From the IMG/VR virus record IMGVR_UViG_3300046009_015179, positions 1 through 40,875 of that record: 40,875 bases of DNA; one strand, given 5' to 3'. The position numbers and the translations under genes are program-made. The first letter of the stretch is position 1. Each line of letters opens with the position of its first letter. Shown here in pieces: positions 1,068 through 39,976 of this stretch. The stretch is from a virus. A model generated the notes under the pieces. It saw only the letters and a program-made list of their open reading frames with translations. It had not been told where the DNA came from and made no database searches.

Positions 1068-1901
1068 ATGTTGTCTTATAAAAATTGGAAATCTTTAAAC
1101 GAAAGCTTTTTTAATCAAACTTTAGGTCTTTCAAATCACCAAAATTTGGGATTAGTTAGTCCTTCTAGTCTTTTTGATCCAGTTCATAGTGAAGCTAAAG
1201 CAAAAAAAGAAGTTATCGAAGATGAAAGTGGTGATGGAGAAACAGTACCAGCAGCATCAGAAAAAGATGAGCCAAAGATGAGCAAGTGTAAATATTGTGG
1301 AAAATATTCCAAAAATATGAAAAAAGAAGATATGGATCATGAAGATATGGATCATGAGGATCATGAGGATCATGAAGATAAAGGTGATGAGGATCATGAG
1401 GATCATGAAGATAAAGGTGATGAAGATCATGAAGGTGATGAAGATCATGAAGGTGATGAAGATCATGAAGGTGATGAAGATCATGAAGGTGATGAGGATC
1501 ATGAAGGTGATGAGGATCATGAAGGTGATGAAGATCATGATGAAAGTGATGGAGATGAATTTGAAGAATCTAAAAAGCATAAAAAGCATATGAAACACAT
1601 GAAGTGTATGAAGTGCATGAAAGAATCTTCTTATAATGAATCTAAGAAATCAACGCACAAAAAGAAATCTAAGAAAAGTGTGCCAAAAAAAGATGTTGAT
1701 TCAGATACTGACTCAGATGTTGAAGCAAGCGAAGATTCAGAAGCAGCTATAATCAGCAAACTTGTGAAAAAAGGATTACCAGAAAAACTTGCAATTGCAG
1801 TTGCAAAAAAGAAAATGAAGAAGATTAAAAATGAATCTTCTTGGATGGAAGGAGTTTTTGGTGCAAATCCAACTCGAAAATTCTATGATGGTATTAGCTA
1901 A
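1068..1901 (+). CDS. acidic His/Asp/Glu repeat protein with capsid-targeting-like leader
   Basis: The start is the ATG at 1068, preceded by GGAG with six-base spacing; an in-frame TTG at 1056 lies over that ribosome site and is unlikely. The protein (277 residues) begins MLSYKNWKSLNES, like the T4 internal-protein leader (MKTYQEFIAEA), with LNE/S as a possible prohead-protease cut. A CxxC pair follows (CKYC, about residue 77), then His/Asp/Glu repeats including seven near-perfect GDEDHE units. Next comes a Lys/His/Met/Cys stretch (KKHMKHMKCMKCMK), a Lys/Ser-rich linker, a helix ending in KKKMKKIK, and a tail with SSWMEGVFGANP. The charge pattern suggests cation or metal binding or a packaged polyanion. 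Function unknown. A terminator hairpin follows the stop. Confidence 0.75.
   Translation: MLSYKNWKSLNESFFNQTLGLSNHQNLGLVSPSSLFDPVHSEAKAKKEVIEDESGDGETVPAASEKDEPKMSKCKYCGKYSKNMKKEDMDHEDMDHEDHEDHEDKGDEDHEDHEDKGDEDHEGDEDHEGDEDHEGDEDHEGDEDHEGDEDHEGDEDHDESDGDEFEESKKHKKHMKHMKCMKCMKESSYNESKKSTHKKKSKKSVPKKDVDSDTDSDVEASEDSEAAIISKLVKKGLPEKLAIAVAKKKMKKIKNESSWMEGVFGANPTRKFYDGIS
1416..1541 (+). repeat. tandem 18-bp repeat, seven units, coding GDEDH(E/D)
   Basis: Seven consecutive 18-base units of the form GGTGATGAAGATCATGAA, differing by GAA/GAG synonymous changes. The last unit ends in Asp instead of Glu. Irregular EDHEDHEDK units lie just upstream (about 1336-1415). Unit length is a multiple of three, so copy-number change would lengthen or shorten the protein without a frameshift. 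Confidence 0.95.
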
Positions 1902-1921
1902 CATTTTTTCAATATAAAATT

Positions 1922-1954
1922 AAAGCCTCATGTCTAAAGACTTGAGGCTTTTTT
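1922..1954 (+). terminator. rho-independent terminator after the acidic-repeat gene
   Basis: AAAGCCTCA (1922-1930) pairs with TGAGGCTTT (1943-1951). An inner GTCT/AGAC stem closes on a two-base loop, with one T-T mismatch between the stems. A T-run (1949-1954) follows on the plus strand. It lies 21 bases after the stop of 1068-1901 and overlaps the 3' end of the convergent epimerase gene. Confidence 0.85.
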
Positions 1955-2833
1955 CATTTTTTCAAGTAAATTCTTTACACCAGTTTTAATATCGACTTTT
2001 GGATTATAATTTAATAGTTCTTGAGATTTTCTGATATGAGCTTTAGTGTGATTTTGAAAGAATAAAGTAAATGGATTATCTAGGTATTCCACTTCAAGTG
2101 GCTTCCCTAAATTTTCCTTAATAGTGGATATGATATCATTTATAGAAGTTCCAACACCTGTACCAGCATTGAAAACATCAGATTTGTTATATTCTAAACA
2201 GGAAATATTTAAATCAACAATATCCTCAACTGCAACCCAATCTCTTGTTTGCTCGCCAGATTTAAATACACTGACTTTTCCATTTTGTATTGCTTGTTTG
2301 CACAATTTATAAATCATGCTTGCTCGGTTTTTTTTGTGCTGTTCTCCAATCCCATAAACATTAAAATATCTCAAACCAATGACTGGTATTTTTTTATCTT
2401 CTGAAAATTTATTTGCGATATTTTCTAGTCTATTTTTCGATTGCGAATAAATATTGGCGGGGCATGTTTCGCCATCTTCTCGATGTGGAGGAGGCAACAA
2501 ACCATAGACAGATGCACTACTTGCGTAAATAATTTTTTTGCAACCCATATCAGCAACTTGATTAAAAACTTCTAAAGAGAAATCGCAGTTTATAGAGTAC
2601 ATATACTCTTCATCGGTGTCCGTAGTATCATTGTGTGCTGCTTGATGAAAGCAATAATCTAAATTTTTTAATTTACTTAGTCCGGAACAGTTCGGAGGTA
2701 AAAAGTAATCATGCTTGCACTTCCTTTCACTCCTACTTCCAGATACAATGATCTCATGACCAAGATCATGAAGTTTATTTGCTAATGCGGAGCCAATGAA
2801 TCCAGAAGCACCAGTAACTAATATTCTTGCCAT
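1934..2833 (-). CDS. NAD-dependent sugar epimerase, HldD-like (SDR family)
   Basis: A 299-residue extended short-chain dehydrogenase. The N-terminus has the Rossmann motif GASGFIG (residues 8-14), and the catalytic Tyr-x-x-x-Lys appears as YSQSK (about residues 129-133). The segment FNVYGIGEQHKKNRASM and the later SGEQTRDWVAVEDIVD and FNAGTG are closest to ADP-L-glycero-D-manno-heptose 6-epimerase (HldD/RfaD), though related UDP-sugar epimerases cannot be excluded. Start after AAAGGAG, eight bases upstream. It would make a nucleotide sugar for lipopolysaccharide or capsule, consistent with the glycosyltransferases at 11342-13754. The 3' end is convergent with the acidic-repeat gene and shares its terminator hairpin. 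Confidence 0.9.
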   Translation of the reverse strand: MARILVTGASGFIGSALANKLHDLGHEIIVSGSRSERKCKHDYFLPPNCSGLSKLKNLDYCFHQAAHNDTTDTDEEYMYSINCDFSLEVFNQVADMGCKKIIYASSASVYGLLPPPHREDGETCPANIYSQSKNRLENIANKFSEDKKIPVIGLRYFNVYGIGEQHKKNRASMIYKLCKQAIQNGKVSVFKSGEQTRDWVAVEDIVDLNISCLEYNKSDVFNAGTGVGTSINDIISTIKENLGKPLEVEYLDNPFTLFFQNHTKAHIRKSQELLNYNPKVDIKTGVKNLLEKMKKASSL

Positions 2834-2887
2834 GTTTAAATCTCCTTTATCATTAAGATAGGATCATTTTGAGGTTTTTTGTCAATT

Positions 2888-5915: not shown

Positions 5916-6227
5916 ATGCAAGGCTTTATTGAATTTTTTGAAAACAATCAAAACGAAAGCCAAGTAATAAATATTTACTTGGCTAGACCCGATCTTTCTG
6001 TATCTAAAATTGGAAATATGTTTGGTTTATCAGAAAGAGAGGTTTATCGGATACTTCATGTAAGCCAAATAAATCCCAATAGAAAGAACCTACACAAAGA
6101 AAAGGTTCAGCACTTGCATGGTTTGGGATGGGGAATTAAAGAAATCGCAAATTTTACAGGATATTCAGCAAGGAATGTAAGGTACATATTGAAAAATCCT
6201 TTGAGGGAACATGACTCTGCAAAATGA
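5916..6227 (+). CDS. small double helix-turn-helix protein
   Basis: A 103-residue protein with two HTH-like segments. The first, about residues 27-46, reads DLSVSKIGNMFGLSEREVYR; the second, about 73-92, reads GWGIKEIANFTGYSARNVRY. The paired Trp/Gly-x-x-x-Ile-Ala pattern with basic exits suggests DNA binding, as in small regulators or small terminase-type recognition subunits. The gene overlaps the following structural gene by 17 bases, suggesting coupled expression. It diverges from the amidoligase unit across 57 bases that must hold both promoters. No recognisable SD lies close to the ATG. It could regulate the unit; this is inference. Confidence 0.7.
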   Translation: MQGFIEFFENNQNESQVINIYLARPDLSVSKIGNMFGLSEREVYRILHVSQINPNRKNLHKEKVQHLHGLGWGIKEIANFTGYSARNVRYILKNPLREHDSAK

Positions 6228-13761: not shown

Positions 13762-14208
13762 TTATTGACCCATTTGCGGTTGATTTCCAACTTGTGGTTG
13801 ATTAGCTGGAACGCCTCCAACTTGTGGTTCAGAATGATTCTTCATCATTTTTTGAGTCACGGCGTGTTGCCCAAGAATAATTCTTTTTAATTCGTCATCT
13901 TTTAGTCCTGCTTTTTCCTTGGCAATTGTTGCGAAATTATGCAACAAGTTCACCCACACTGCTTTTGGCATGCTTTTAGGCAAAACGCCAATAAAGTTTT
14001 GATATTTACTTTCAACATTTGAAGCTAATTTAGACAATTCTTGTTCAGAAGCATTGGATTGGGTGGATGATACATTTCCCAACGGCTTGTTGCCAGCGGG
14101 TTGAGCAGGAGCTTGTGCGGATGCCATTGGCGTAGTTCCACCCATAGTCATTTGATTTGCATCCATTTCTTTAAACTCGCACCACTCAGTAAATTTTTTC
14201 AAGGACAT
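13762..14208 (-). CDS. hypothetical virion-type protein with capsid-targeting-like leader
   Basis: A 148-residue protein beginning MSLKKFTEWCEFKEMDANQM; KFTEW matches the leader pattern shared by many proteins here. A disordered Ala/Pro/Gln linker (about 24-55) leads to a helical domain (about 56-125, SEQELSKLASNVESKYQNF, then PKAVWVNLLHNFATIAKEK). A Pro/Gln/Asn tail carries two PQVGxxPxNQPQ-like repeats. It ends in Gly-Gln. GGGG precedes the ATG. A leader plus linker plus helical bundle fits a packaged internal head protein, an inference from the T4 internal proteins. Ten bases downstream of the gene at 14218. Confidence 0.7.
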   Translation of the reverse strand: MSLKKFTEWCEFKEMDANQMTMGGTTPMASAQAPAQPAGNKPLGNVSSTQSNASEQELSKLASNVESKYQNFIGVLPKSMPKAVWVNLLHNFATIAKEKAGLKDDELKRIILGQHAVTQKMMKNHSEPQVGGVPANQPQVGNQPQMGQ

Positions 14209-14463: not shown

Positions 14464-14495
14464 ATTTTCCAACAATGAACAAAAAGAAACTAAAA

Positions 14496-14711
14496 TCAAG
14501 TTTTTTTCCTTCCTCTATTTTTTTTCTTACCACAAAAAAACTTCTCATCTGGATTAAAATCAGTTTGACCACTTTTCGTGTTTGTCATGGCATATTTACT
14601 TTTAACGCCAGTTAAACCAAATACTTCATCGGCATTGCTATTTGGTTGACCCAAAAGAGGCAAATCAATTTGTTCTTTATCTAGCCATTCTCTGAAAGAA
14701 ATAAGACTCAT
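14496..14711 (-). CDS. small protein with capsid-targeting-like leader
   Basis: A 71-residue protein starting MSLISFREWLDKEQIDLPLL; SFREW matches the leader pattern. The rest is polar and probably disordered, ending in a very basic tail (GKKKNRGRKK). Leader plus basic tail would suit a small DNA-associated protein packed in the head. No strong SD. Three bases separate it from the zinc protein upstream. Confidence 0.65.
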   Translation of the reverse strand: MSLISFREWLDKEQIDLPLLGQPNSNADEVFGLTGVKSKYAMTNTKSGQTDFNPDEKFFCGKKKNRGRKKT

Positions 14712-18878: not shown

Positions 18879-19415
18879 ATGAATTTCAATGAGTTTGTTA
18901 GACTTAATGAGTCCACTGTTATCGATCTTTATAATAGTACTGTGGATGCGTTTCCTAAAACTACGAAAAGACAAAATTCCATCGATATGATAAAAATTAT
19001 TGAGATGAATTTTTTGCCTTATCTTGGAATGAGGACACTTTTCGTAAAAGGTCTAGCAAAAAATATTGGTAATCAAAAGGAATATACAACAGTTGCTTTG
19101 TTTAAAGGAATAAAATATCTAACTAAGGAATCTAAAAATTCCATTAAGTTGATTGCAAGCGATGAAAAGAAATATATTCTTGAAACTATAAAGTCAGATG
19201 TTAATGAGGTTGTCGTAAGATGTACTTGCCCTGATTTTTATTGGAGATTCAATTACTACAACTCAATTGATAAAAGCCTTTATGGAAGAAAAAGAAGTAA
19301 GTATGAGTCAAAAAGCAACGAAAGAATTGCAAATGTGAATGAATCACCCGGAATGTGCAAGCATTTGATCAAATTGATCAAATCGTTAAATGACTCTAAA
19401 ATCATGGAGGACTAA
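18879..19415 (+). CDS. SWIM-type zinc-finger protein with capsid-targeting-like leader
   Basis: A 178-residue protein starting MNFNEFVRLNESTVIDLYN; NFNEF and LNES match the shared leader and candidate cleavage site. The C-terminal half has the SWIM signature CxCxxF...CxH: VVVRCTCPDFYWRFNYY (about residues 109-125), then SPGMCKHLIKLIKSL (about 154-168). SWIM fingers bind DNA or proteins and are found in several large-phage proteins of this size. No clear SD lies before the ATG. The TAA stop shares a base with the next gene's ATG. If the leader is genuine, this zinc protein would be packed in the head and could meet the DNA early. Confidence 0.75.
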   Translation: MNFNEFVRLNESTVIDLYNSTVDAFPKTTKRQNSIDMIKIIEMNFLPYLGMRTLFVKGLAKNIGNQKEYTTVALFKGIKYLTKESKNSIKLIASDEKKYILETIKSDVNEVVVRCTCPDFYWRFNYYNSIDKSLYGRKRSKYESKSNERIANVNESPGMCKHLIKLIKSLNDSKIMED

Positions 19416-22106: not shown

Positions 22107-22139
22107 AATGATCTCCTTTGTAATAAGTAGAAATTAAAA

Positions 22140-26275: not shown

Positions 26276-26921
26276 ACATATAATACCAAGAAAATTCGAA
26301 AAAATAAGAATAGGAAATAACAAAGATGGAGGATATGTTCTTCCTAAAAAATGTATCGATGAAGGTGATCTTTGTATTTCTTTTGGATTGGGAAATAATA
26401 TTACTTACGAAAAAGATTTATTGAATAGGAATAAAAAAGTTATTGGATATGATATTGCATTAAAAACACGACACGCATGGGCAAGAAAAATGAAACTTGA
26501 TACCTATGAAGAATTCGCAAACATACCAGAAGTACAACAATCTAATAAAATAGTTCTAAAGATAGATACCGAAGGTTCGGAATGGAATTTTTTTGAAACA
26601 ATGAATATGCAACATTTTGAAGAAAAAATTTCTTGCTTTGCTTTTGAATTGCATCTCCATATGAATCCTAAAAAAACACCATTATCAGTTATGGAAAAGA
26701 TGCTTGATACACATTATGTCGCTCATGTTCATGGGAATAATTATGGAAATTGTAAGGAACTAGTTCCAGTTGCATTGGAAATTACACTGGTAAATAAGAA
26801 ATATTTTGACAACCCACCAATTGATATTCAAAAATATCCTATTAAAAATTTAGACTATGTAAACAAACCGGGACGCATAGAATTAGATTTGCCTTGGTTG
26901 CATAGTATTAAGCTGTTGTGA
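26268..26921 (+). CDS. FkbM-type SAM-dependent methyltransferase
   Basis: About 217 residues from the ATG at 26268 (ATGAATAA overlap with the MscL-like stop); starts at 26250 and 26214 are also open. The fold shows RIGNNKDGGYVL, then ISFGLGNNITYEKDL (SAM-binding glycine region) and GYDIA. KIDTEGSEWNFFETM is the FkbM/Methyltransf_21 hallmark, and AFELHLHM follows. Such enzymes O-methylate sugars or small glycans. With two epimerases, two glycosyltransferases and the sulfotransferase it completes a glycan-decorating set. The 3' end overlaps the convergent metallopeptidase gene by 39 bases. Confidence 0.85.
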   Translation: MNKHIIPRKFEKIRIGNNKDGGYVLPKKCIDEGDLCISFGLGNNITYEKDLLNRNKKVIGYDIALKTRHAWARKMKLDTYEEFANIPEVQQSNKIVLKIDTEGSEWNFFETMNMQHFEEKISCFAFELHLHMNPKKTPLSVMEKMLDTHYVAHVHGNNYGNCKELVPVALEITLVNKKYFDNPPIDIQKYPIKNLDYVNKPGRIELDLPWLHSIKLL

Positions 26922-27569
26922 TTGAACTTTGTTTGGCTGCATAGTATTAGGCTGTTGTGATTGACCTTTGCTTCGATATGACGCTAGTATAGGTATTTGT
27001 TGGCGAATAACCTGCCAATGTTTGGATACCCAATCTATGAATATTTTTTCAGCCCTTACAGGACCAACTTCACTTGTTGTTCCCGTTGTTTGCAACTCAA
27101 TCTCATGAGTGCATTCGTGAACAATCGTACTGGCTATTTCAATTATAGCATCCAAAGTATCTCCGTGAGTTGCTAAATGCTTTTGAACATTTACACGAAT
27201 TACATCTGATGGCTGTAATTGATTTACATCTATATCTGGAATGTATTTCTTGATAACAGCATTAGGAACTGTATTTAACTTTTGATTCATCATAATGTCA
27301 GAACCAAATTTCATTTTGATCTTGTTTGCAACAGAAGCCCCTACAATTTTTTTATTTTCTGCTGAACTATAAAGACCATAAGCACCTGATTGCAATAACG
27401 CAATGGTGCTTATATTTTTAAGTAACTTCTGACCTGTCAATCTATCGTAAAGTTGTACTAACTTTACTGAATATTTTGCACTTTTATATGCAGAATCAAT
27501 TTGGGTCTCATCGACATTTTCTGTGCCAATGGTAGAACCTTGCTCATAAAACCATTTTGAAAAATTCAT
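26883..27569 (-). CDS. HExxH metallopeptidase-like protein with capsid-targeting-like leader
   Basis: A 228-residue protein from the ATG at 27569 (GGAAGG five bases upstream; a four-codon-longer frame overlaps this site). It starts MNFSKWFYEQGSTIG, matching the leader pattern. The core has the zinc-protease motif HECTHE within IASTIVHECTHEIELQ (about residues 144-159). EVGPVRAEKIFIDWV follows, giving a possible third ligand (Glu). The tail has a twice-repeated Gln/Asn/Pro unit (SQQ-P/L-NTMQP), encoded by a 30-base near-repeat. No signal peptide. It is likely packaged in the head and could act in the host cell on entry; this is inferred from leader similarity. A lytic or peptidoglycan role cannot be excluded. 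Confidence 0.75.
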   Translation of the reverse strand: MNFSKWFYEQGSTIGTENVDETQIDSAYKSAKYSVKLVQLYDRLTGQKLLKNISTIALLQSGAYGLYSSAENKKIVGASVANKIKMKFGSDIMMNQKLNTVPNAVIKKYIPDIDVNQLQPSDVIRVNVQKHLATHGDTLDAIIEIASTIVHECTHEIELQTTGTTSEVGPVRAEKIFIDWVSKHWQVIRQQIPILASYRSKGQSQQPNTMQPNKVQSQQLNTMQPRQI

Positions 27570-27946: not shown

Positions 27947-28303
27947 TTATGTTTCTAATTGTAAATCATTTATAATTTCTTTTGTTTCTTTTTCATGAGT
28001 TTGCATAACTTCTTTTTCGATTTCTGGCTTTCCTTTGATCAAATTGATAATTTCAGCCAAACCAACAAAAGGCAATGCAGCAATAATGCTAGAACCCGGA
28101 ATCGGAGATAAAGTGCCTAGTAATGCCACTCCTATGATGATTTTAGCCATGTTCTTGCCATATTTGACTGATAGTCTCTCATAATGATTTTTGATTTTTT
28201 CAATGATTTTAGATGGCGAAATAAAGTCGGCAATCCCTTCCCTATAAAATTCATAAGGTTTGAAATTACTGACTATTTTCCATTCTGAATATGATAGCAA
28301 CAT
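27947..28303 (-). CDS. hypothetical membrane protein with leader-like start
   Basis: A 118-residue protein starting MLLSYSEWKIVSNFKPYEFY; SYSEW fits the shared leader pattern, close to MLSYKNWKSL of 1068-1901. A charged helix is followed by one hydrophobic hairpin (about residues 53-90, AKIIIGVALLGTLSPIPGSS, then IIAALPFVGLAEIINLI) with a Pro-Ile-Pro turn and a polar tail. No SD. It lies three bases after the homing endonuclease stop. Perhaps a packaged membrane-active protein; speculative. Confidence 0.6.
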   Translation of the reverse strand: MLLSYSEWKIVSNFKPYEFYREGIADFISPSKIIEKIKNHYERLSVKYGKNMAKIIIGVALLGTLSPIPGSSIIAALPFVGLAEIINLIKGKPEIEKEVMQTHEKETKEIINDLQLET

Positions 28304-29603: not shown

Positions 29604-31034
29604 TTAAATAATAAAGTTAGCAATCGACATTCTTGCGTAGAATTTAGCACCTTCCCTTAACAATTTTTTTCCGTATCTTGTCAAAATACCTTTTCTGGGG
29701 CAAAAGCTCTCTGGATCGAGAACAACAGGTGTCTGAGTAAGAGGAACATAAGGGCAGTAGAAATATCCTGAGTCAAGATATGAATCGCCTTTATAGCCCA
29801 TAAGGATTTGATTGCTTTGGAACAATGGATCTTTATATAATCTCCAACGATTGTTCACAGTTCCGACATACTGGATGCCAAGGGAGCTAGTGAATGTTTC
29901 GCTAGGAGCAGGAGCGAAACCAGCGGTTGCGGTTTCGAAGATCGAAGCAACTTCGGGAGATGTAACGATGAAGTTAGCACCACCACGAAGGGTCTTACGA
30001 TGAATAACGGAGGAAATTTCAACGATCTTCACATAGAGAGATTCGTATTTTTCCTTGATGGTATCACCTAAGGAGGTGTTGAAGTCCCAAGCGGTTACAG
30101 TACCAGCATTTTGACGGAGGTCGGTGAGGACTTCACGATCAATTTCAAGATTAATTTCTTGAGCAAGAACTGCGGTCAATTCGGCTTCAGCGTCCAAGTT
30201 GTGTTGCGAACGAAGATCTTGTTGAGCTTCATAAGACCATACAGCCTTCAACTTACGGGTCTTGGCGGTAATATCTTCAGATTCAACAACGAGGTTGATT
30301 TCTGGAAGGTCTTGATTACATTCAAGATTAGATTCGTAGCTCATTACTACGCTATTTGCACCGGGATCGCTATCCCAAGTCAATGTCAATGCACCACTGG
30401 TCAAATCAATTGTGCCAGTAGATACAGCGGGTGAAGGTGAGCCAATTTCAGTTTTATTGAATGTGCCACCAGCACTAAAATTGAATGTATATACTGCTGT
30501 AGCACCATCATAGATAGTACCAGTAATAGTACCAGCCAAAATTGGTCCTCGTTCAAGTGTGAAGTTGGAAGTGGTATCGCCACCTGCATCTACTAGTCTC
30601 TCGTTTTGAACGAACTGGTGAGAATAGAAGATATCAAGGTTTGCAGTACCATCAGCCTTCTGCATCAAGGAGTTTGCGTCATCACCGGGGAAGCCGCCAT
30701 TATTATCTGCACCACGGGTAGCACCCTTATTGGATGAATAGCGGAAGCGGAGATAATAAACAAGACCAGTAGGTCCAAGCAAAGGCTGGACGGATACGAT
30801 CTTATTAGCGATCAACTGTGGGTAAATCCTACGAACCAATGGTATGGAGATTCGTTTGAATTGTGCGATGTCAGCGGTGTCGGTAGACACTTCGTTGATA
30901 AGGCGTTGGTTTTCGAGAAGAACTGCTGTGGCTGCACGAGTATTACGGTCTTCGATTCCATTGAGGAGACCAGTTTTAGCCCAGCGTCCTTCTAACTCTT
31001 TAGCTTCATTTAAAAATCTAGCATTAGCGTTCAT
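29604..31034 (-). CDS. major capsid protein, T4 gp23-like
   Basis: A 476-residue T4-type HK97-fold capsid protein. Family marks are IPLVRRIYPQLIANKIVSVQ (about residues 66-85) and PLLGPTGLVYYLRFRY (about 86-101), the gp23 P-domain entry. A long insertion (about 130-230) and ETFTSSLGIQYVGTVNNRW come later. MGYKGDSYLDSGYFYCPYVP, RYGKKL and a short C-terminus complete it. T4 gp23 loses 65 residues to the prohead protease; here LINE/V (about residue 51) or FLNE/A (residue 10) are candidate cut sites. AAAGGAAA precedes the ATG. Base composition is richer in G/C than neighbours, as expected for the most expressed gene. Confidence 0.95.
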   Translation of the reverse strand: MNANARFLNEAKELEGRWAKTGLLNGIEDRNTRAATAVLLENQRLINEVSTDTADIAQFKRISIPLVRRIYPQLIANKIVSVQPLLGPTGLVYYLRFRYSSNKGATRGADNNGGFPGDDANSLMQKADGTANLDIFYSHQFVQNERLVDAGGDTTSNFTLERGPILAGTITGTIYDGATAVYTFNFSAGGTFNKTEIGSPSPAVSTGTIDLTSGALTLTWDSDPGANSVVMSYESNLECNQDLPEINLVVESEDITAKTRKLKAVWSYEAQQDLRSQHNLDAEAELTAVLAQEINLEIDREVLTDLRQNAGTVTAWDFNTSLGDTIKEKYESLYVKIVEISSVIHRKTLRGGANFIVTSPEVASIFETATAGFAPAPSETFTSSLGIQYVGTVNNRWRLYKDPLFQSNQILMGYKGDSYLDSGYFYCPYVPLTQTPVVLDPESFCPRKGILTRYGKKLLREGAKFYARMSIANFII

Positions 31035-31068: not shown

Positions 31069-31971
31069 TTACTTTGGTTTTTTCACACCTGAAAGAACCA
31101 AGATTTGGTCTATTTCACTGCTGTTGTTGTTGTCATAATTTTCCGCAATTACGACTTCTTGATCAACAACCTTATTACCTCTCCCCGTTACATTCTGTGC
31201 TTTTTCAACCCTTGCATTCTGTTCTGTAATTACTTCAGACTTTTTTCGACTTTCAACCGCCCTTGTTTGCTCTGTAATTAAATTTTTAGCATAGCGTACA
31301 TTTTCATTAAGTTTAGTGTTTTCGGTAGAAAGCCTGATATTACGGGCTTCCATAATTCGAAGTTGACCTTTAAGTTCATCGGCTTGTTTGATTGCTTCTT
31401 CAACTTTTGCTGAAGAGACATTGTTCACTTCATCATCGGAAAGATAATTGCTGGTGAGGTCAACAATCTTATCGAGAACGACCTTATGTTCAGCCAAGCG
31501 AGGATCGGTTACGATGTCCTTGCGAGCTTGTTCATAGATTTCTTGACCCTTCACTTGAAGGAATTGATCTACCTTATCAACAATGTATTCCTTCATTTCA
31601 TGAAGTTTCTTGTCGTATTCTTCGTACAGTTCTACTTCAAGAGAATTGTTTTTAGCTCTTTCAGATTTAAGCATCTGATAGGCTTCTTCATATCCTTCTT
31701 CCATAGCTTGCTTGTACTCTTCGCCTTGAATTTCAAGACGATTGCGAAGATCGGCAATGATAGAATAAGCTTCTTCATAGCCTTTTTCCGCAGTATTTTC
31801 TGATTTGTTTAGTTCGCCAGAGAGATCTGAATATGCTTCTTCAAGCTTTTCATTATACTCTTTTTCGAGACTTACTTTAGCCTGATCTAGCATCTCGCTG
31901 ATAGCAGAAGATACTTCCTTTACATCGGACTCAGGCAACAATTTCTTGATCGCTTCCATTATCTTTTCCAT
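31069..31971 (-). CDS. prohead scaffold protein, T4 gp22-like
   Basis: A 300-residue, almost entirely helical, Glu/Lys-rich protein with long coiled coils and repeated EEAY motifs (EEAYSDL, YEEAYSII, YEEAYQML). It sits between the protease and capsid genes in the gp21-gp22-gp23 order of T4. It would form the internal core on which gp23 assembles and then be degraded by the prohead protease. The C-terminal end (EIDQILVLSGVKKPK) is conserved in form with gp22 tails that contact the shell. GAGG precedes the ATG. Identity rests on order, composition and tail. Confidence 0.88.
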   Translation of the reverse strand: MEKIMEAIKKLLPESDVKEVSSAISEMLDQAKVSLEKEYNEKLEEAYSDLSGELNKSENTAEKGYEEAYSIIADLRNRLEIQGEEYKQAMEEGYEEAYQMLKSERAKNNSLEVELYEEYDKKLHEMKEYIVDKVDQFLQVKGQEIYEQARKDIVTDPRLAEHKVVLDKIVDLTSNYLSDDEVNNVSSAKVEEAIKQADELKGQLRIMEARNIRLSTENTKLNENVRYAKNLITEQTRAVESRKKSEVITEQNARVEKAQNVTGRGNKVVDQEVVIAENYDNNNSSEIDQILVLSGVKKPK

Positions 31972-32013: not shown

Positions 32014-32691
32014 TCAAACAATTTTTGATTTAATACTTTTTGTTTGATCCTCGATTATTCCACCCAAGCAAGCAATTAACGCTTCTTTGCTAACTCTATG
32101 TATGCTGCTACTTTCATTTTTAGCAGGTATTTCCATAGAATTATTTATTGGAGCGTAATTTTCTCGCTTGTTATTTACCACCTTCTCCTGAAAGGCAGCG
32201 TGTGTGCTTGGATCTGCAACCGCATCAAAAGTTAAGAGTTTATAGCTCTCGCCAATGACAAGGATGCCGTTCTCGTCCACTTTGCCGTTGCCTACGCCAC
32301 GGCTACTAATTCCGACTCGTACACCATCATTGATAAGTGCTTTGAGGATTCTTCCATGTGGAGTATTAAGAATCTCTCCCTCACCCATGAGGTTATTGCC
32401 TTCCCACCACAACTTTGTAATGACATGAGATGCCTTTTCAAAGTGAATGATAGAATCAGTGGGATGGTCAAGTTCGCCAACCAACCCACGAGATTCAATT
32501 ACTGGCAAAAGTTTCTTTACATTTTCATCGAGGACTCCGTGTGGATACATCCTCTTATTTTTGTTAACAGCTTCGGCTTCTTGGAATTTTCCTCTAAACT
32601 TAGTGAGTCCTTTATCGGTGGATTCATTAAGATTTAGAAAGAGTCCTCCATTATTGCAGGAGTCAACAAGTAGCATTTTGTTGTCGCTCAT
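32014..32691 (-). CDS. prohead maturation protease, T4 gp21-like
   Basis: A 225-residue serine protease of the gp21/assemblin group. Catalytic residues by motif are His76 (VGELDHPTDS), Ser129/Ser130 (VRVGISSRGVG) and Asp156 (LLTFDAVADPSTHA). The N-terminus contains NLNESTDKG, with the LNE/S pattern seen in other leaders; this may be an autocleavage site. The C-terminal tail is Lys/Ser-rich and is probably removed. It would cut scaffold, capsid and leader-bearing internal proteins at (L/I)-x-E sites. AAAGGAG precedes the ATG. Ten bases downstream of the core protein gene. Confidence 0.93.
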   Translation of the reverse strand: MSDNKMLLVDSCNNGGLFLNLNESTDKGLTKFRGKFQEAEAVNKNKRMYPHGVLDENVKKLLPVIESRGLVGELDHPTDSIIHFEKASHVITKLWWEGNNLMGEGEILNTPHGRILKALINDGVRVGISSRGVGNGKVDENGILVIGESYKLLTFDAVADPSTHAAFQEKVVNNKRENYAPINNSMEIPAKNESSSIHRVSKEALIACLGGIIEDQTKSIKSKIV

Positions 32692-32701: not shown

Positions 32702-34540
32702 TTATTCAACTGGTTGGGCTATTTCAGCCTTTGGATGCAATGGATTATTGAGGTTTGGCCAAGTATCATTCGACTGGAATGTGCCGATTTCCTCATTATC
32801 CTTATCAACACCTTTTTCGCCCTTTAGAGTGAAAGTGAAGGGATCAGGAATGTAAGGGTTACTTAAGGATGGCCAAGTATGGTCACCACCGTCATTACCC
32901 AAAGCATTATGAGCCATTTCTTCATCTCCGCCCAAATCCTTTCCATCACTTACAGGTGCATGGTTAACACCATATTCATCCCTTCCATTGAATTTGGAAG
33001 GAACTGCATCGGTTTGTTTTGCATTCCAAGCAGTATTTGGATGATCTCCATCAGCGGAAGTATGAACTCCATGATCTTTCCATTCGCCAGAGTTATCAAT
33101 ATTGGCTTCAACTAAATCATTGATATAATCAGCGATTTCTTCAGCCATTTCTAAGGACGGAGATTGAGTTTTGCTTAATACAGCTTCAACATCATACATG
33201 AAACTTGCGGTTTCAATCTTAGTTGCTTCGTCACCGATTTCGCTTGCTGTTTTGTGCATTTCATGAAGAGCCTTATAAAGATCTGAGAAAACTCTCATAT
33301 CAATACTTTCGCTTTCATCAAGTTTTGAAAATAACTTAGTGGCTACATTTTGGAATTCCACATAAGCATCTTTGCATTCTTTGCATTCTGCGGTGATATC
33401 AGTTCTAACACCAGCAGCAGTACCAATTTTCTTTACACGATCTGTATATGCACTGTGTGCAGTTCTAAGAATTGCTTCAGCAATAAACTTGCAAGTATCA
33501 TCATCATAATTTGTGATATTTGCTATTTCGAAAGCTTCAGCGATATTATTAGTCAATTCTTCCTGAGTTAAATAAAGAACTCCGGGGAATTTGCTAACCA
33601 TGTTTTCTAGAGCTTCTTCAAGGGAAGAATTATCAGATGTGTTGTTATATCGCTTTAATTCAGCGATAGCCTTTACAAATGTCTGATTCTCATTAAGCTT
33701 CTTGGCACTACCACGAAGAATTTTGAGATCTGTATCGATTGTTTTCCATTGGAAGGAAAGGATTTTACCTTCGTTCCTTTTTTGTGTATTTGGAATAGCT
33801 ACAGCAACAATATTTCCTTTATTGTCAGGTTGAATTATAGATTCGGTCAACATATGACCATAATTTTTGTATTCAACATAACCAGATACATTATTGGCTA
33901 AATTAGCCCATTCTTTCATATTTTTTACTGCACGAACATAAGTTCTCCAACGAGGATTTTTAGATTTTCCAAGTTTCCTTGCAGCTGTAGCTCGCTTACG
34001 ACCTAATTCTTTCTTTTTGCTCTTCGAAATTTTTCTCTGACTTAGCTTTCTCATACGAACACGCTTTGCTACTAAGCTGCGTGGTTGTTTCTTGTGGAAT
34101 AGCTTGCTGCGTTTGCCAGTAGGTTTGGAAACCGATACTTTAAATGCAACTGCTTCGCTAATTTGTTTACGAACATTTGGTAGCGAGAAGTACTCGTCAA
34201 ATTTATTGTCAGCGATTTCATCCTTGCTTTCGATAATTGCATCCACCATTTCAGAAATAGTTTGTCTTGCACCTTTCTTAGCGGATTCTTCATCGATAAC
34301 AAGTTCTTGAATGTTTTCAAAAATAACTTGATCATCTTCTAGCTTGTAAATTGCATTGATGAAGTTATCATCAGCGGTTTTGTAGGTAACAGCGTTTTCG
34401 GTGAAAGAAAACAACTCAACATCAATGCCGAGAGTTTTACCTAAAATGTCTTCAGCAAGAATAAGTTCTTCTTCAATACGGGTTAAAGAATTTTCTTGCA
34501 AATTTTTGAATGCTTCAAAGCTTATAAGTTTTCTTTTCAT
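32702..34540 (-). CDS. putative prohead core/internal protein with basic segment
   Basis: A 612-residue protein lying between portal and protease genes, where T4 has the core genes 67 and 68. It begins MKRKLISFEAFKNLQENS, matching the leader pattern and a possible LQE/N cut. Residues 139-199 are extremely basic (KRSKLFHKKQPRSLVAKRVR, then KISKSKKKELGRKRATAARK), likely to bind DNA or RNA. The middle is helical (about 260-480). The acidic C-terminus carries two copies of TWPxLxNPxxP, at about 558 and 595. I infer a core or internal head protein processed by the protease. AGGAG precedes the ATG. No homologue by name. Confidence 0.75.
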   Translation of the reverse strand: MKRKLISFEAFKNLQENSLTRIEEELILAEDILGKTLGIDVELFSFTENAVTYKTADDNFINAIYKLEDDQVIFENIQELVIDEESAKKGARQTISEMVDAIIESKDEIADNKFDEYFSLPNVRKQISEAVAFKVSVSKPTGKRSKLFHKKQPRSLVAKRVRMRKLSQRKISKSKKKELGRKRATAARKLGKSKNPRWRTYVRAVKNMKEWANLANNVSGYVEYKNYGHMLTESIIQPDNKGNIVAVAIPNTQKRNEGKILSFQWKTIDTDLKILRGSAKKLNENQTFVKAIAELKRYNNTSDNSSLEEALENMVSKFPGVLYLTQEELTNNIAEAFEIANITNYDDDTCKFIAEAILRTAHSAYTDRVKKIGTAAGVRTDITAECKECKDAYVEFQNVATKLFSKLDESESIDMRVFSDLYKALHEMHKTASEIGDEATKIETASFMYDVEAVLSKTQSPSLEMAEEIADYINDLVEANIDNSGEWKDHGVHTSADGDHPNTAWNAKQTDAVPSKFNGRDEYGVNHAPVSDGKDLGGDEEMAHNALGNDGGDHTWPSLSNPYIPDPFTFTLKGEKGVDKDNEEIGTFQSNDTWPNLNNPLHPKAEIAQPVE

Positions 34541-34744: not shown

Positions 34745-35080
34745 ATGAAAACATTTCAACAATATATTGAAGATGTCGCAATGGATCTTGGTCGTGAAAT
34801 AGCTGGAAGGGGTCTAAGTGCATCAAAAGGACCAGTACTAGCTCATCTTCTTCGTGCAGTTCGTATTGCAATTGCTGACGACCCAACTTTTGCTCGAAGA
34901 CTACTGACTTTGTTGCAAAGCGAAGGTCCAGATGTTCAAGGAGAACTAGATAAGTCAAATATGGATGATCTTAATGATTCTGCATTTTTGTCTGGTTTGA
35001 GAACGGCTGCAAAATCTGGTTTGAAAACTTCTAAAGATGAACCAGATGTAGTTGCTCCAAACGCTTCTGACATGGCATAA
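34745..35080 (+). CDS. internal-head-protein-like protein with T4 capsid-targeting-like leader
   Basis: A 111-residue protein starting MKTFQQYIEDVAMDLGREIA. The first ten residues are nearly the T4 internal protein leader (MKTYQEFIAEA of IPII/IPIII), which targets proteins to the prohead core. The rest is helical with basic patches (LLRAVRIAIADDPTFARRLL) and an acidic, disordered tail. GAGG precedes the ATG. The gene lies antisense inside the leftward head operon, between the zinc protein and the core protein, and its stop abuts the zinc protein's stop. Best guess is a packaged internal protein; what it does after ejection is unknown. Confidence 0.75.
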   Translation: MKTFQQYIEDVAMDLGREIAGRGLSASKGPVLAHLLRAVRIAIADDPTFARRLLTLLQSEGPDVQGELDKSNMDDLNDSAFLSGLRTAAKSGLKTSKDEPDVVAPNASDMA

Positions 35081-35330: not shown

Positions 35331-38300
35331 TTAACTCATTGTGCTATCATCACGATCTTCATGATCTTGTTCTATTCCATAATTTATAATTTCAAGATTG
35401 TACTTTTTCAAATCATTTTCTTCAGCATCTGGAATTTCATCTGTTGCTGTTGTTGGAGGTTCGCCTTCTGGCGGTGGTGTAGTTTCGCCTTCTGCTGGCG
35501 GTGGTGTAGTTTCGCCTTCTGCTGGCGGTGGAGCTTCTGCACCAAGATCTGGAGTTGGACCACCAGCTTCAGACCCTATTTCTTTTCCTGCTTCTTCTGG
35601 AGTAGGAACACCAACACCTAGCAATTGAGGATTTTGAGACATAATCTGAATTTTTAGATCTTCTAATTTTTGCAATTTAAGTCTGCTCAACATCATAGAT
35701 GTATCTTCTTCTGAATACATTAAAACTTTTGTATAAATGTCATAATCTGACATTAACAAACCACTTTTTAAAGAACCTGCATTTGTAAGTCTTGCTGTTT
35801 TTACTTCGGCTCTTGATAATTCTCTCCAATCTGATGGTGGAGTCATACGAATTTTTAAATCTTTAAACATTTCTTGTGGAAATCCACGAAGTTCAAGATG
35901 TCTTTCGCATATATCTAAAATTCCATCTTCAAAATTCGATTGAAGTCTTTCGATCATTCTTGCGAACTTAACATCTTGTGCTGATAATGTAATTCTAGTT
36001 GCATTAACATCTTCACTTGAAAAATAACTTTTTGGAAAGTTCAATGAAACAAATAATTTATTTCTAAAATAAACAGCATCATCAATTTCTCCAAGGTTTT
36101 GTGCGCCCGGAAGAGTTTCAATTCTACTATTTGCATTTGGACGAACTGGAACCCAATAGTCTTCATCTTGTGCTGGTGGTTGCCATCTTTCTTCTACAAG
36201 GTTTGCACCTGTTGTTGCACGATTACCAGCAGTTTTTCTTTTACGAAATTGATCTTTTAATCTTTCCATAAAAGCTTCTGCTTTAAATGGTGGAAGTTGA
36301 CCGACATCTATATAAAACACTCGTCTCTCGGGCGCACGAGTATTATGGGTCGGTATGCCATTGGCTATGAAATTATGAAGTTCATTTTCAACTGTAATAT
36401 CAAAAACTTCTTCTTTTCCTACATGTTCTACAGATATTACATTTTCATATTTCGGCAATTCATTTTCAGATATTGTCACAGAATAAGAAATAGTTGACGG
36501 CATCTTTCTATTTTTTTCTATGATATGACCACATTTACGATGTCTAGTTTTAAGTTTTCCAGAACACAATCCAATTGAAGACCAAATTTCCTTGATATCT
36601 TCAATCAATTTTTGATTACACAATTCAATTGTAGAAAACCATGTTCCCTTTTTTGTTGTTCTTTCACATCCATCTGCATTACAAATTCCTTCGACAAATG
36701 CTTTTCTAATATTTTTCGATGCTGTGTGAACCCAATCAGGAATTCTTTTGTTTTTAGCTCCATGGATATATCCCAAAGTGATAAAAGTTTTACAAGCTAT
36801 TCTAGAATCGACTACATATTTACCTAGTTGTTTATGCTTGCTTCTAGTTTCTTTTTCAAATCTCACTTTTCCAAAATATTTTTTCAATAAATTTGCATAG
36901 AATTTATTTTGTCTATCATCCATGCCAGCAGTAAAGTTTAACTGGCATTTATTCTTACTCATTGATCCATCGCCAATCAGAAATCCAAAAAGACGAGCAA
37001 AATCTTCATCTACATATTTTGGTAAATCAATTCTTTCTTCATTGTACTGACCTTTACTTACAACAATTAAATTGTCAGGATTAATTTCAAATTTGTCACA
37101 TATTTCCAAAGCTTTTTCATATGGCAAAGCCTTTCCTTTAGAATACAAAAACTGTTTGACTCTATCCGCTTTAGTGCTACACAATCTCATGATTTGAGAT
37201 TTATTTGCGTAGGTATTATTACGGAATGATTTTCTTTGGGAATCACTTATCTTTGCCCATTTAGTTCCAAATATTTTTGGGATCTCAACTTCTTTATCAT
37301 TATTCCTTTGAACATTTATAATCATATCATGTTTTGGAATTAAGTTTTGAATATCAACATATTGAATAATTCCGTTTCTGTTAACCAGAATTGGATGGGT
37401 TGCTGTTCCTGTAATTTCCACATGTTTTGTCTTAACTTTATAAACATCTTTAATTCCATTGTTCATAAAGTTTATAACATTGGTAATTATAGTGTTGTTA
37501 GATTGATCATAAGAATAAACTTGATCATTTATTTGTAAGTCCTTGATGTATTTATAGCTATTTTCGGTTCTAATTCTTGTATTTCCAACAAGACACAGGC
37601 GATATACCACCATTGCATCTTCCATAAGTCTTAATTGATGTGCTGGTCCTCTGGCTGGTTCGATAAGAGATTGTCCGTAAGGATAGAAATTTCTTCGATC
37701 ATCTCCAATTCTCATATGCAAAATTTGGGATGGTGCAAATCTTATTGCTGTAGATTGGGATAATTCTGCATCACTTTGTTGTGATACATCTCCTCTTGCC
37801 AATGCTTGATAGTCTGGACCTTCTTTTGATTGTTGGAATTCAATTAATTTTCCTTTAATTGTTTCGATTCGATACATTGTCTCTGGTGGCAAAGGTATAA
37901 TTTTATAGATACCCTCAGCTGGTTTATCTGGATTTATAACTATTTCGAAAAATTTGTCACCATGAACAATCATATCTTTGAAGTACACATAACCATATCT
38001 GTTAAGATTTAACATTTTTCGATGAAGAAGCAAAAATTCAATTTCTTTTCTAACTTCGTCATTTTTGCATTCAATAGTCATAATATTCCCTGCATCATTC
38101 TTTTGGCAATTATGAAGGATTACAGAGTCTGTTGCAAAGCACAAATGTTTCTCAACTGATATATCATAAACATCCATTTCTGGACCTTCGGCTACACTAA
38201 CAACCTTTCTTACCGTTGCTCTCCTGTGCAATTTTCTAATTTCTTTTAGTGTGAATCCATTCTTTTGAATCATACTATCGATAGTATTCCAATCATGTTC

Positions 38301-39101
38301 CATTATTTTGGCGATTTGTCTTACTGGAATGTCGCTTCCAATTAGTCTGCAAGCTCTATTTAACTTTTCATATTCGGGAGTTATTTTGCCACTTTTCCAA
38401 TCATCTACAAATTGTCGTTCATGAATCCATCCTTTATCAAATGAAAATATTCTTGGAAATTGATTCACTCTAAGATTTGTTAAATTTTGATTGGCTGGAA
38501 TACGATAAAATGGCATTAATTCATCGCCAAATTCAAGTTCTCCGCAAGGAATCCATTCGCCATTTCGTTTTAAAATGCGATGATCTGGTGTTGCGTATAT
38601 GATTTTTCCATCATCTAGAACAACTTCAACAGTTTTGGCTTTCTTTACAAGTCTTGGAGCAAATGCCCATCCAAGTGTGTAATCTCTTTTTTCTAAGTTG
38701 TAGCAATAAACTAAAAATCTTTCATTAGCTTTGTTTTTTGTGAGCCATTCTATAGTTTGGTAGCCATGTGGAGTTGCAATCAATGTATCTCCGCTGACGC
38801 ATGCTTCATCAGCGAATACGGTCATAGCCATTTCAATTTCTGGTAAATTTCTTAGTCTTTCGTATTCTTTATATCTTGAAGATCGATTACCAAGTGTGGT
38901 AGTATCGATCATATCATAGGTTTGACGAAGGTTGATGTAATTACTTGGACCTTGTCCAGCAACTAATTCGCCGCCAGTTTGCAAAGCATCAGCCTGAGAA
39001 ATCCCTGCACCAGAAAATTTAGAAGAATCTTTTCTTTTTGCTAGTGGGTCTTTTTCTGTGGCGTATGTAAATAGCTTAAAAAAATCTGACCAAAGTGTCA
39101 T
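35331..39101 (-). CDS. portal protein (T4 gp20-like) interrupted by two inteins
   Basis: A 1256-residue precursor. After removal of intein 1 (residues 101-331) and intein 2 (503-920) a 607-residue portal remains, comparable with T4 gp20 (524). Exteins show FADEA-CQKNDAGNI at the first junction, MIVHGDKFFEIVIN, SQILHMRIGDDRRNFYPYG, and VVYRL-TRAPERRVFYIDVG at the second, the most conserved portal block. ERWQPPAQDEDYWVPVR and the clip/crown region follow. The C-terminus is a Pro/Glu/Gly linker with two identical AEGETTPPP units (about 1208-1226). GAGGAA precedes the ATG. The portal forms the dodecameric DNA gate and nucleates prohead assembly, so full splicing is needed for infectious particles. 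Confidence 0.95.
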   Translation of the reverse strand: MTLWSDFFKLFTYATEKDPLAKRKDSSKFSGAGISQADALQTGGELVAGQGPSNYINLRQTYDMIDTTTLGNRSSRYKEYERLRNLPEIEMAMTVFADEACVSGDTLIATPHGYQTIEWLTKNKANERFLVYCYNLEKRDYTLGWAFAPRLVKKAKTVEVVLDDGKIIYATPDHRILKRNGEWIPCGELEFGDELMPFYRIPANQNLTNLRVNQFPRIFSFDKGWIHERQFVDDWKSGKITPEYEKLNRACRLIGSDIPVRQIAKIMEHDWNTIDSMIQKNGFTLKEIRKLHRRATVRKVVSVAEGPEMDVYDISVEKHLCFATDSVILHNCQKNDAGNIMTIECKNDEVRKEIEFLLLHRKMLNLNRYGYVYFKDMIVHGDKFFEIVINPDKPAEGIYKIIPLPPETMYRIETIKGKLIEFQQSKEGPDYQALARGDVSQQSDAELSQSTAIRFAPSQILHMRIGDDRRNFYPYGQSLIEPARGPAHQLRLMEDAMVVYRLCLVGNTRIRTENSYKYIKDLQINDQVYSYDQSNNTIITNVINFMNNGIKDVYKVKTKHVEITGTATHPILVNRNGIIQYVDIQNLIPKHDMIINVQRNNDKEVEIPKIFGTKWAKISDSQRKSFRNNTYANKSQIMRLCSTKADRVKQFLYSKGKALPYEKALEICDKFEINPDNLIVVSKGQYNEERIDLPKYVDEDFARLFGFLIGDGSMSKNKCQLNFTAGMDDRQNKFYANLLKKYFGKVRFEKETRSKHKQLGKYVVDSRIACKTFITLGYIHGAKNKRIPDWVHTASKNIRKAFVEGICNADGCERTTKKGTWFSTIELCNQKLIEDIKEIWSSIGLCSGKLKTRHRKCGHIIEKNRKMPSTISYSVTISENELPKYENVISVEHVGKEEVFDITVENELHNFIANGIPTHNTRAPERRVFYIDVGQLPPFKAEAFMERLKDQFRKRKTAGNRATTGANLVEERWQPPAQDEDYWVPVRPNANSRIETLPGAQNLGEIDDAVYFRNKLFVSLNFPKSYFSSEDVNATRITLSAQDVKFARMIERLQSNFEDGILDICERHLELRGFPQEMFKDLKIRMTPPSDWRELSRAEVKTARLTNAGSLKSGLLMSDYDIYTKVLMYSEEDTSMMLSRLKLQKLEDLKIQIMSQNPQLLGVGVPTPEEAGKEIGSEAGGPTPDLGAEAPPPAEGETTPPPAEGETTPPPEGEPPTTATDEIPDAEENDLKKYNLEIINYGIEQDHEDRDDSTMS
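36342..37595 (-). mobile_element. intein 2 in the portal gene (418 residues, LAGLIDADG type)
   Basis: Begins at Cys503 (CLVGNTRIRTENS) and ends at Asn920 (IANGIPTHN), with Thr921 as the +1 residue. Block B is TGTATHPIL (564-572). The endonuclease domain has both LAGLIDADG helices, LFGFLIGDG (704-712) and FVEGICNADG (802-811), each with its metal-binding Asp, so homing activity is plausible. It splits the conserved VVYRL/TRAPERR motif of the portal, a site under strong constraint where imprecise loss would be lethal. Confidence 0.95.
38109..38801 (-). mobile_element. intein 1 in the portal gene (231 residues, no LAGLIDADG)
   Basis: Begins at Cys101 (CVSGDTLIATPHG, block A) and ends at His330-Asn331 (SVILHN, block G), with Cys332 as the +1 residue. 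Block B is IYATPDHRIL (168-177) and block F is VYDISVEKHLCFAT. The normal endonuclease place (about 203-294) holds no LAGLIDADG motif. Instead it has a predicted helix-turn-helix (about 254-283, DIPVRQIAKIMEHDWNTIDS), a DNA-binding remnant or a different homing module. Splicing residues look intact. Confidence 0.92.
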
Positions 39102-39169
39102 AATATTCCTCTACTTATATTAGTGTGCTTTCTTAGTTATTGTATTATCCAACTTTTTTAGGGCATTTG

Positions 39170-39760
39170 ATGAAAAAAGTTCTATTTATAATGAGTCACA
39201 TTGGTAGTGGATCTAATGAATTATATGCTTTATTGAATAATGAAACAAGAATCATGGGATTTGAAAAAGATAATATTTATGATACACCATTGAGATTGTT
39301 GGGTCTTACTGAAAATAAGCACAAGTTAAATAATTCATCAAGAATATACATGGATCACCTACTGTATAATTATCAATATAGTCTCAAGCCTAATCAATTT
39401 TGCCAATTTATATTTTTGGTAAGAGAGCCAGAAGCAACGATTGATTATCTTATAAATCAAAAGATTTATAAAAAAAATGATGCAAAAAGATATTATCTTT
39501 ACAGAATCAGAAGATTGTGCGAATTAGCAAAAAGAAATCCAAATTCTGTTTTTTTGACACATTCGAATCTTCGTGAGGGAAAAGGTTTAGATTTAATATC
39601 AGAATATATTGGATTAAAAACTAAATTGAAATTCAGTCAAGAGTTCATTATCCCATCTGGAAAAAATACTTTACAATTACAAGAATATGAAAATTTATCT
39701 AATGCTTATGAGAAATATATTTATTTTGCAAATAAAGTTTGTAACATAATTGTTAAATAG
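39170..39760 (+). CDS. sulfotransferase-like P-loop protein
   Basis: A 196-residue protein from the ATG at 39170 (TTAGGG upstream; an in-frame TTG at 39140 is less likely). MKKVLFIMSHIGSGSNELYA contains a PAPS-binding-like P-loop (SHIGSGSNELY). IFLVREPEATIDYLI matches the 3'-phosphate-binding R-x-P region, and NPNSVFLTHSNLREG follows. This suggests transfer of sulfate to a glycan or protein. It lacks some usual C-terminal elements and may be a divergent member. Complements the sugar-modifying genes in the window. Divergent from the portal gene over 68 bases. Confidence 0.7.
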   Translation: MKKVLFIMSHIGSGSNELYALLNNETRIMGFEKDNIYDTPLRLLGLTENKHKLNNSSRIYMDHLLYNYQYSLKPNQFCQFIFLVREPEATIDYLINQKIYKKNDAKRYYLYRIRRLCELAKRNPNSVFLTHSNLREGKGLDLISEYIGLKTKLKFSQEFIIPSGKNTLQLQEYENLSNAYEKYIYFANKVCNIIVK

Positions 39761-39763
39761 ATT

Positions 39764-39976
39764 ATGAAATTTAAAAATTGGTTATCTAAAAAATCTGAAA
39801 ATTTTAATATTGGCATTTCTGATATTGGACCCGACTCTCATGATATGCTCCCGCCCATGGATAGTGCGGGAGCATTTCAAACAATTGGTGATGATAAACC
39901 GCCAGTAAATAAGAAAACAAGATCTGTAAAGAAATGTAATTGTGGAAAAAAGAATCATTTTGGAAAAAGAATATAA
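39764..39976 (+). CDS. small protein with capsid-targeting-like leader
   Basis: A 70-residue protein starting MKFKNWLSKKSENFNIGISD; KFKNW matches the leader pattern. The middle is Pro/Asp/Met-rich (PDSHDMLPPMDSAGAF) and encoded over a GC-rich hairpin. The end is basic with CNCGKKNHFGK (Cys57, Cys59; possibly metal-binding), recalling the CGC protein at 24-275. Three bases after the sulfotransferase stop, so cotranscribed. It overlaps the convergent peptidase gene by 22 bases. Likely a packaged small head protein, by leader similarity. Confidence 0.65.
   Translation: MKFKNWLSKKSENFNIGISDIGPDSHDMLPPMDSAGAFQTIGDDKPPVNKKTRSVKKCNCGKKNHFGKRI
39845..39875 (+). repeat. GC-rich 10-bp inverted repeat inside a coding region
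   Basis: ATGCTCCCGC (39845-39854) pairs with GCGGGAGCAT (39866-39875) across an 11-base loop. The stem is 70% G+C in otherwise AT-rich DNA. It encodes DMLPPMDSAGAF of 39764-39976. No T-run follows, so it is not a standard terminator. Confidence 0.7.

Follow-up and report, generated by a model that had tools for sequence, protein, structure and literature searches.

Unrelated proteins of a lineage of huge bacteriophages begin with the same short sequence, M-(x)-[ST]-F-x-[EQ]-[WF]-L in its general form, and this leader is very probably a capsid-targeting sequence (CTS) of the T4 type, from which we infer that the proteins bearing it are packaged into the prohead, cleaved and ejected. The stretch of DNA under study, referred to throughout as the window, is IMG/VR record IMGVR_UViG_3300046009_015179, whose 40,875 bp are a genome fragment; for that reason, eight relative contigs of 76-595 kb (G001-G007 and W01, the last being LR756511.1) were used for genome-scale tests. 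One of them, G006, is longer than the window and nearly identical to it.

A common leader on unrelated proteins

Genes of the window and its relatives were called with a program blind to the leader motif. At their starts we counted a strict pattern, M-x(0,4)-[STKN][FY]xx[WF], and the looser M-x(1-5)-[STKN][FY]xx[WFYS] with which a first-pass annotation of the window had collected at least ten proteins, using 200 N-terminal shuffles and the pooled internal methionines as controls. The strict pattern occurs at 7 of 57 window starts (shuffles: mean 0.7, maximum 4) and the looser one at 12 of the 57 (mean 2.0, maximum 6); internal methionines match at 0.55% and 1.7%, respectively, and the corresponding binomial p values are 3e-8 and 2e-10. 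The strict excess recurs in all eight relatives, for example at 30/840 starts against 4.9, 44/1080 against 7.9, 25/435 against 2.2 and 16/180 against 1.8; a motif search against shuffled starts, which the annotation had itself proposed as a check, accordingly returns an excess in the window and in every relative. The motif is short and the window measures only 41 kb, but the probability that it reflects chance or a gene-calling artefact is negligible: the comparison of starts with internal methionines already refutes this in the window alone (p 3e-8 to 2e-10), the result is repeated in each relative, and the caller had no knowledge of the motif.

A seven-column leader profile, always trained without the genome under test, scores at least 9 in 28 genes of G001 (decoys 0.7), 38 of W01 (decoys 1.1), 28 of G002, 19 of G004 and 7 of the window, corresponding to 28-38 leader genes per 530-600 kb genome among the large relatives; at a relaxed threshold, about one tenth of the candidates are expected by chance. 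Paralogy behind the common leaders is ruled out, because the 175 leader proteins of the window and the eight relatives fall into 128 unrelated clusters by similarity of their bodies, so that common descent of whole proteins cannot account for the leader. The first-pass annotation had spoken of a large set of tagged proteins, which is right, and the set is larger still in the relatives.

All ten N-termini listed in that annotation were found where it had placed them, in called genes, although Ser replaces the second aromatic in the protein starting at 17101 and the prefix of the one starting at 34540 is unusually long, which explains the weak profile score of the latter. The list was incomplete in that it overlooked 5916-6227 (MQGFIEFF), whose orthologs carry both the leader and the upstream element described below. 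Two further genes matching the looser pattern, at 10225 and 23039, have low profile scores and look like chance matches. The probable start sites are ATG 1068 rather than TTG 1056, and ATG 27569, upstream of which lies another in-frame ATG at 27581.

Likeness to the T4 capsid-targeting sequence

In the T4 CTS, residues 4 and 7 drive targeting and residues 8 and 10 drive processing, and the prohead protease gp21 cleaves after L/I-x-E (PMC9026906). The huge-phage leader has its aromatic residues at T4 positions 4 and 7, is short and N-terminal, and is common to unrelated proteins of phages that also encode a gp21-type prohead protease (Table 1). Even the columns left free by our pattern agree: K, [KR], [EQ], L and a downstream E are enriched about 3-6 fold in the aligned leaders, which matches T4 MKTYQEFIAEA in the K before [ST], the [KR] and then [EQ] between the aromatics, and the L after the second aromatic. 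When the huge-phage profile, trained without T4, was run on the 264 T4 genes, the internal proteins IPIII, IPII and IPI took ranks 2, 3 and 4 (p = 1.3e-6). Rank 1 went to gp61.1 (MKTFKEFIKED, 54 residues, annotated as hypothetical; gene 61.1, AF158101 18966-19130), which by its N-terminus may be an unrecognised internal head protein of T4.

The same search covered T4, P-SSM2, KVP40, phiKZ, lambda, SPO1 (100 kb) and Atu_ph07 (220 kb), and gave several strong matches in P-SSM2. No leader excess was found in phiKZ (1/356 matches), SPO1, lambda or Atu_ph07, and that of KVP40 is weak.

A protease site enriched after the leader and avoided in the bodies

A site of the form [LI]xE[ASN] lies within residues 9-24 of 15.6% of leader proteins, compared to 2.9% of other proteins and 3.6% in shuffles, so that an L/I-x-E site soon after the leader characterises the set without being evident in every protein. 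In the bodies the tendency is reversed: the observed/expected ratio of LxE is 0.81 in leader proteins vs 1.18 in others, and that of IxE 0.85 vs 1.13. Relative to other proteins, the leader bodies are not depleted in VxE, AxE, [LI]x[DN] or the reversed E-x-[LI], and a depletion confined to LxE and IxE matches the published L/I-x-E specificity of gp21 (PMC9026906). Avoidance in the body is our own expectation for a protein that survives in the prohead, rather than a published criterion; together, the enrichment after the leader and the depletion in the bodies fit proteins that would be exposed to a gp21-type protease.

These observations bear on two other ways of reading the leader. One is that most of the tagged proteins belong to the scaffold or core and are degraded and expelled rather than delivered. 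Indeed, gp21 chops the T4 core proteins gp22, gp67 and gp68 (PMC9026906, PMC5694885), and the head module contains the genes at 34745 and 32702-34540, whose relatives are found there too; but avoidance of LxE and IxE is the opposite of what proteins meant for chopping should show, the bodies differ between phages, and single leader proteins contain NUDIX (1e-21), peptidase C39 (2e-12), AAA_33 kinase-like (6e-17), CCA-adding-type nucleotidyltransferase (1e-25) and DUF3293 (2.5e-17, with S-AdoMet-lyase similarity at 3.8e-6) domains in Pfam. We therefore consider this explanation unlikely for the set as a whole. Less probable still is that the leader targets the tail, the baseplate, an infection compartment or a membrane, its likeness to the T4 CTS being convergent: the location of the proteins is read from sequence and some of the cargo looks enzymatic, but the blind recovery of the T4 internal proteins, the LxE/IxE-specific enrichment and depletion, and the lack of excess in phiKZ, SPO1 and lambda point to a prohead containing gp21.

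An upstream box on one third of the leader genes

A second signal accompanies the leader at the DNA level. The hexamer TA[AC]ATA starts at exactly -10/-11 from the ATG of 54/159 leader genes (34%) vs 35/2,831 others (1.2%), with an odds ratio of 41 (p 1.8e-49) that is positive in each genome; some non-leader genes thus also have it. With few exceptions, box-bearing genes have C or T at position -1, and they have a tract rich in A/T near -30 to -25. In the window, the element precedes the genes at 14496, 18879, 27947 and 39764, whereas 1068, 34745 and 32702 have Shine-Dalgarno-like sequences in its place. The enriched form is not the canonical TATAAATA at the usual T4 distances, a candidate that was tried and rejected; in T4, P-SSM2 and KVP40, that box is found mostly 20-42 nt before the ATG.

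In T4 late promoters, the TATA box precedes the start site by about one helical turn, and there is no conserved -35 element (PMC2988020). With the same spacing, a box at -10/-11 would place the start of transcription at the ATG and yield a leaderless mRNA, and we have moderate confidence in this late-promoter reading. That the box is instead a translation-initiation element, which would concern this second signal only and be compatible with a CTS, is a lesser but serious possibility, as it sits at the place of a Shine-Dalgarno sequence and orthologs of known late-type structural genes mostly have no box there. A promoter, on the other hand, is favoured by the resemblance to the gp55-dependent late box of T4 in phages with a gp55-like sigma (the family was found in seven of eight relatives), and by a purine start that would lie about 10 bp away, after a near-invariant pyrimidine at -1, and an A/T-rich tract upstream, a geometry recalling the one helical turn of T4 (PMC2988020).

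A DNA pattern scan of the whole viral collection lends the box weak support. Its raw counts go the wrong way, with 14 matches to the true box and 25 to a scrambled one; 24 of these 25 come from one gene family, however, and independent families number 11 (true) vs 2 (scrambled). Many viral contigs, among them several of 160-180 kb, contain the family in question, a conserved protein starting MKTFEQWYNHTKK (L320-L344 except L339). We found no description of leaderless late promoters or of leader expansion in T4-like phages in the open-access literature.

Several findings weigh against capsid targeting, or against its details. Atu_ph07 encodes a gp21-type protease and yet shows no leader excess in 220 kb, and that of KVP40 is weak; any [LI]xE in residues 9-24 is found in only 39% of leader proteins, so that many would need another site or remain uncut; most leader proteins other than those named above have no Pfam domain, and most cargo is without known function; and the phages are uncultured, their leader proteins being known here from genes. 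For the box, late structural gene orthologs, taken as a positive control, show no enrichment at -10/-11, which makes the late-promoter reading less secure than the CTS claim. We nevertheless favour capsid targeting, as the first-pass annotation had proposed it, in view of the T4 likeness and recovery of T4 internal proteins, a site that follows the leader and is avoided in the bodies, orthologs that conserve leader and site, and the absence of an excess in phiKZ, SPO1, lambda and Atu_ph07.

A proposed cassette for cargo acquisition

According to this model, a protein would be recruited to the prohead core late in infection through its N-terminal 8-10 residues ([ST]-F-x-[EQ]-[WF]-L, in agreement with Y4 and F7 of the T4 CTS), and a gp21-type protease would clip the tag after [LI]-x-E; the mature protein would remain in the head and probably enter the host with the DNA. 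In the huge-phage lineage, each genome would have come to bear the tag on dozens of unrelated proteins. In about one third of the tagged genes, tag and TAAATA/TACATA box would form a compact unit transcribed from the A of the ATG as a leaderless late mRNA, and fusion to this cassette of about 45 bp would confer on a gene both late expression and targeting to the head.

In G002 and G004, leader genes neighbour one another more often than expected by chance, and at 83.6-98.3 kb of G004, 14 of them lie within 15 kb. In this array, blocks from -16 to +30 average 55% pairwise identity compared to 29-33% for flanking blocks, while the bodies have no BLAST similarity to one another, a pattern that fits repeated fusion of a promoter-plus-tag cassette onto new genes. 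That these huge phages own a modular delivery system, in which a leaderless-promoter and tag cassette of about 45 bp is recombined onto unrelated genes to generate polymorphic arrays of host-takeover and counter-defence proteins for packaging, trimming and injection with the DNA, appears to us about as likely as not. The G004 cargo includes a protein for which an ADP-ribosyltransferase was considered, but there is no Pfam or PHROG match and the model is poor (pLDDT 38), so this is not claimed. A DUF2201 metallopeptidase-like domain (1.7e-8) occurs in the protein MQEVVSNKEWLEI, whose divergent leader could be a chance match.

If this is correct, what uncultured huge phages pack can be read off from a short motif: in each genome, injection would be predicted for the products of dozens of genes, most of them without annotation, including proteins with NUDIX, C39 peptidase, CCA-adding enzyme, AAA_33 and DUF3293 domains. 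The data suggest that some of the largest phages have enlarged the internal-protein system, of which T4 shows a handful of proteins, and probably carry a large protein payload into infected cells, and the cassette logic offers a testable account of how cargo is acquired.

Leader genes and head module of the window

Table 1. Leader genes, candidates and head genes of the window (arrows mark candidate cleavage sites)
Feature	Position	Strand	Length (residues)	Evidence
Leader protein MLSYKNWKSLNE↓S, acidic/His-Asp repeat body	1068..1901	+	277	Profile score 11.8
Additional candidate MQGFIEFFENNQ	5916..6227	+	103	Profile score 8.5
Leader protein MSLKKFTEWCEFKE	13762..14208	-	148	Profile score 13.0
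Leader protein MSLISFREWLDKE	14496..14711	-	71	Profile score 16.8; TAAATA at -10
Leader-like protein MISFKESLELKK	17101..18438	+	445	Profile score 12.1
SWIM-like CxC...CxH protein, leader MNFNEFVRLNE↓S	18879..19415	+		Profile score 11.7; TAAATA at -10
HExxH protein, leader MNFSKWFYEQ	26883..27569	-		G007 homolog leader MKISNFKQWLQEQE
Leader protein MLLSYSEWKIV	27947..28303	-	118	Profile score 10.6; CTAAATA, its TAAATA at -11
Major capsid protein, gp23 type	29604..31034	-		phrog_138 2.9e-83
Scaffold at gp22 position	31069..31971	-		Between protease and capsid, position conserved in all relatives
Prohead protease, gp21 type, own N-terminus FLNLNE↓S	32014..32691	-		phrog_207 head maturation protease 1.6e-49
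Protein at gp68 position in head gene order, start MKRKLISFEAFKNLQE↓N	32702..34540	-	612	Profile score 1.9
Leader protein MKTFQQYIED, beside core and portal genes	34745..35080	+	111	Profile score 8.5
Portal, gp20 type, two apparent inteins	35331..39101	-		phrog_213 1.9e-67, in two stretches
Leader protein MKFKNWLSKKSE	39764..39976	+	70	Profile score 14.0; TAAATA at -10

Orthologs of 1068..1901 in G001, G003, G005 and G007 retain MLSYKxWKxLNES, preceded by a Shine-Dalgarno-like sequence in place of the TAAATA element, and those of 14496..14711 in G001, G002, G003 and G005 retain the leader, whereas an ortholog of 13762..14208, sought in the relatives, is present only in the near-identical G006. 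The distant G005 relative of 17101..18438 begins MKTFYESL, and this Ser in place of the second aromatic may thus be a variant under conservation. Orthologs of 5916..6227 in G002, G003 and W01 have MxxFKxF with TAAATA upstream. The gene at 14218-14499 (minus strand) and its orthologs have starts such as MNFQKLWENMQ and MSSFQRLWENI, which look like a leader variant spaced F-x-x-x-W, and may represent one more family of tagged proteins.

Two functional assignments of the first-pass annotation hold in part. The CxC...CxH motif of its SWIM zinc protein is present, but Pfam gives no SWIM match; among 34 loci, most near orthologs retain M-x-F-x-x-[WF]...[LI]xE[SA] and the element, distant ones are without this leader and site, and in G002 the domain forms the C-terminal part of a 472-residue fusion whose new N-terminus bears the leader. 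Likewise, the HExxH motif of its peptidase is invariant in 4 aligned homologs, but a peptidase finds no confirmation in a family match or a PDB sequence relative, and its fold is poorly modelled (pLDDT 53).

The head module is of T4 type. Encoded on the minus strand, it follows the order known from T4, with portal, an 82-residue protein, the 612-residue protein, protease, scaffold and capsid. The protease matches those of T4, KVP40, P-SSM2 and Atu_ph07, and the capsid protein has 383 relatives in the viral collection; a PHROG search gave no match for the scaffold. The annotation had correctly noticed LNE(S/A) near the N-termini of protease and capsid, the latter having candidate sites FLNE↓A and LINE↓V. 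The start MKRKL-x-x-[FY]-x-x-F of the 612-residue protein is conserved in all seven more distant relatives, and the protein is probably a core component. The G001 relative of 34745..35080, MKTFSQFVGLKEN, adjoins the G001 core gene. In the portal, the two apparent inteins split the gp20-like sequence at ...CVSGDTLIATPHG...SVILHN↓C and ...CLVGNTRIRTENS...NFIANGIPTHN↓T. Both large relatives, G001 (C1:238202-238600, 44% identity) and W01 (C1:242615-242986, 39% identity), encode another homolog of the prohead protease, which has diverged and recalls the protease paralog described in SPN3US.

Elsewhere in the window, four adjacent paralogs at 19969-22930 (minus strand) start MGA[ST]S-x-x-G-x-G-x-GS and have variable, repeat-rich bodies; a related G003 protein has TACATA at -10/-11. 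Non-leader genes include a COOH.NH2 ligase-like one at 4182-5102 (phrog_3815, 5e-48) and a protease-like one at 7959-8900 (minus strand; phrog_3677, 2e-82).

Comparison with known internal-protein systems

With T4 IPI, IPII and IPIII (MKTYQEFIAE↓A, MKTFKEFTSTTTPVSTITE↓A), the leader proteins share an N-terminal K-[ST]-[FY]-x-[EQ]-[WF]-[LI] with aromatics at 4 and 7, an L/I-x-E cut site, a gp21-type protease, the gp20-21-22-23 head module, and bodies more basic than other proteins. They differ in that Trp often replaces Phe at the second aromatic; in that about 28-38 genes are tagged per 530-600 kb genome, with variable cargo that includes enzymes, whereas T4 tags a handful; and in the late-promoter-like box of about one third of the leader genes, which the T4 internal-protein genes do not have at that place.

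The same leader occurs in P-SSM2, where PSSM2_114, 115, 194 and 205 (MRTFQEFL, MKSFKQFL, MKSFSQFL, MKTFKQF) are top-ranked by the huge-phage profile, but these genes are few per genome, lack the -10/-11 element and are not labelled as CTS-bearing in the record. P-SSM2 proteins with CTS-like starts are encoded at AY939844 99763-100529, 158143-159417 and 164043-164690, one of them annotated as a cytitidyltransferase. On the strength of these starts, the P-SSM2 proteins are predicted to be internal; regarding virion proteomics, the main text of the paper searched has nothing on these genes.

Finally, the inner-body and ejection proteins of phiKZ and SPN3US are likewise numerous head proteins that lose propeptides to a prohead protease and are ejected, but the propeptides are mostly long and the sites of S/A/G-x-E type (PMC5694885, PMC13282480). 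Leader proteins do not follow this plan of a long propeptide, an S/A/G-x-E site and no short leader; phiKZ is without the F-x-x-W leader, and the proteins described here have a short leader in common.

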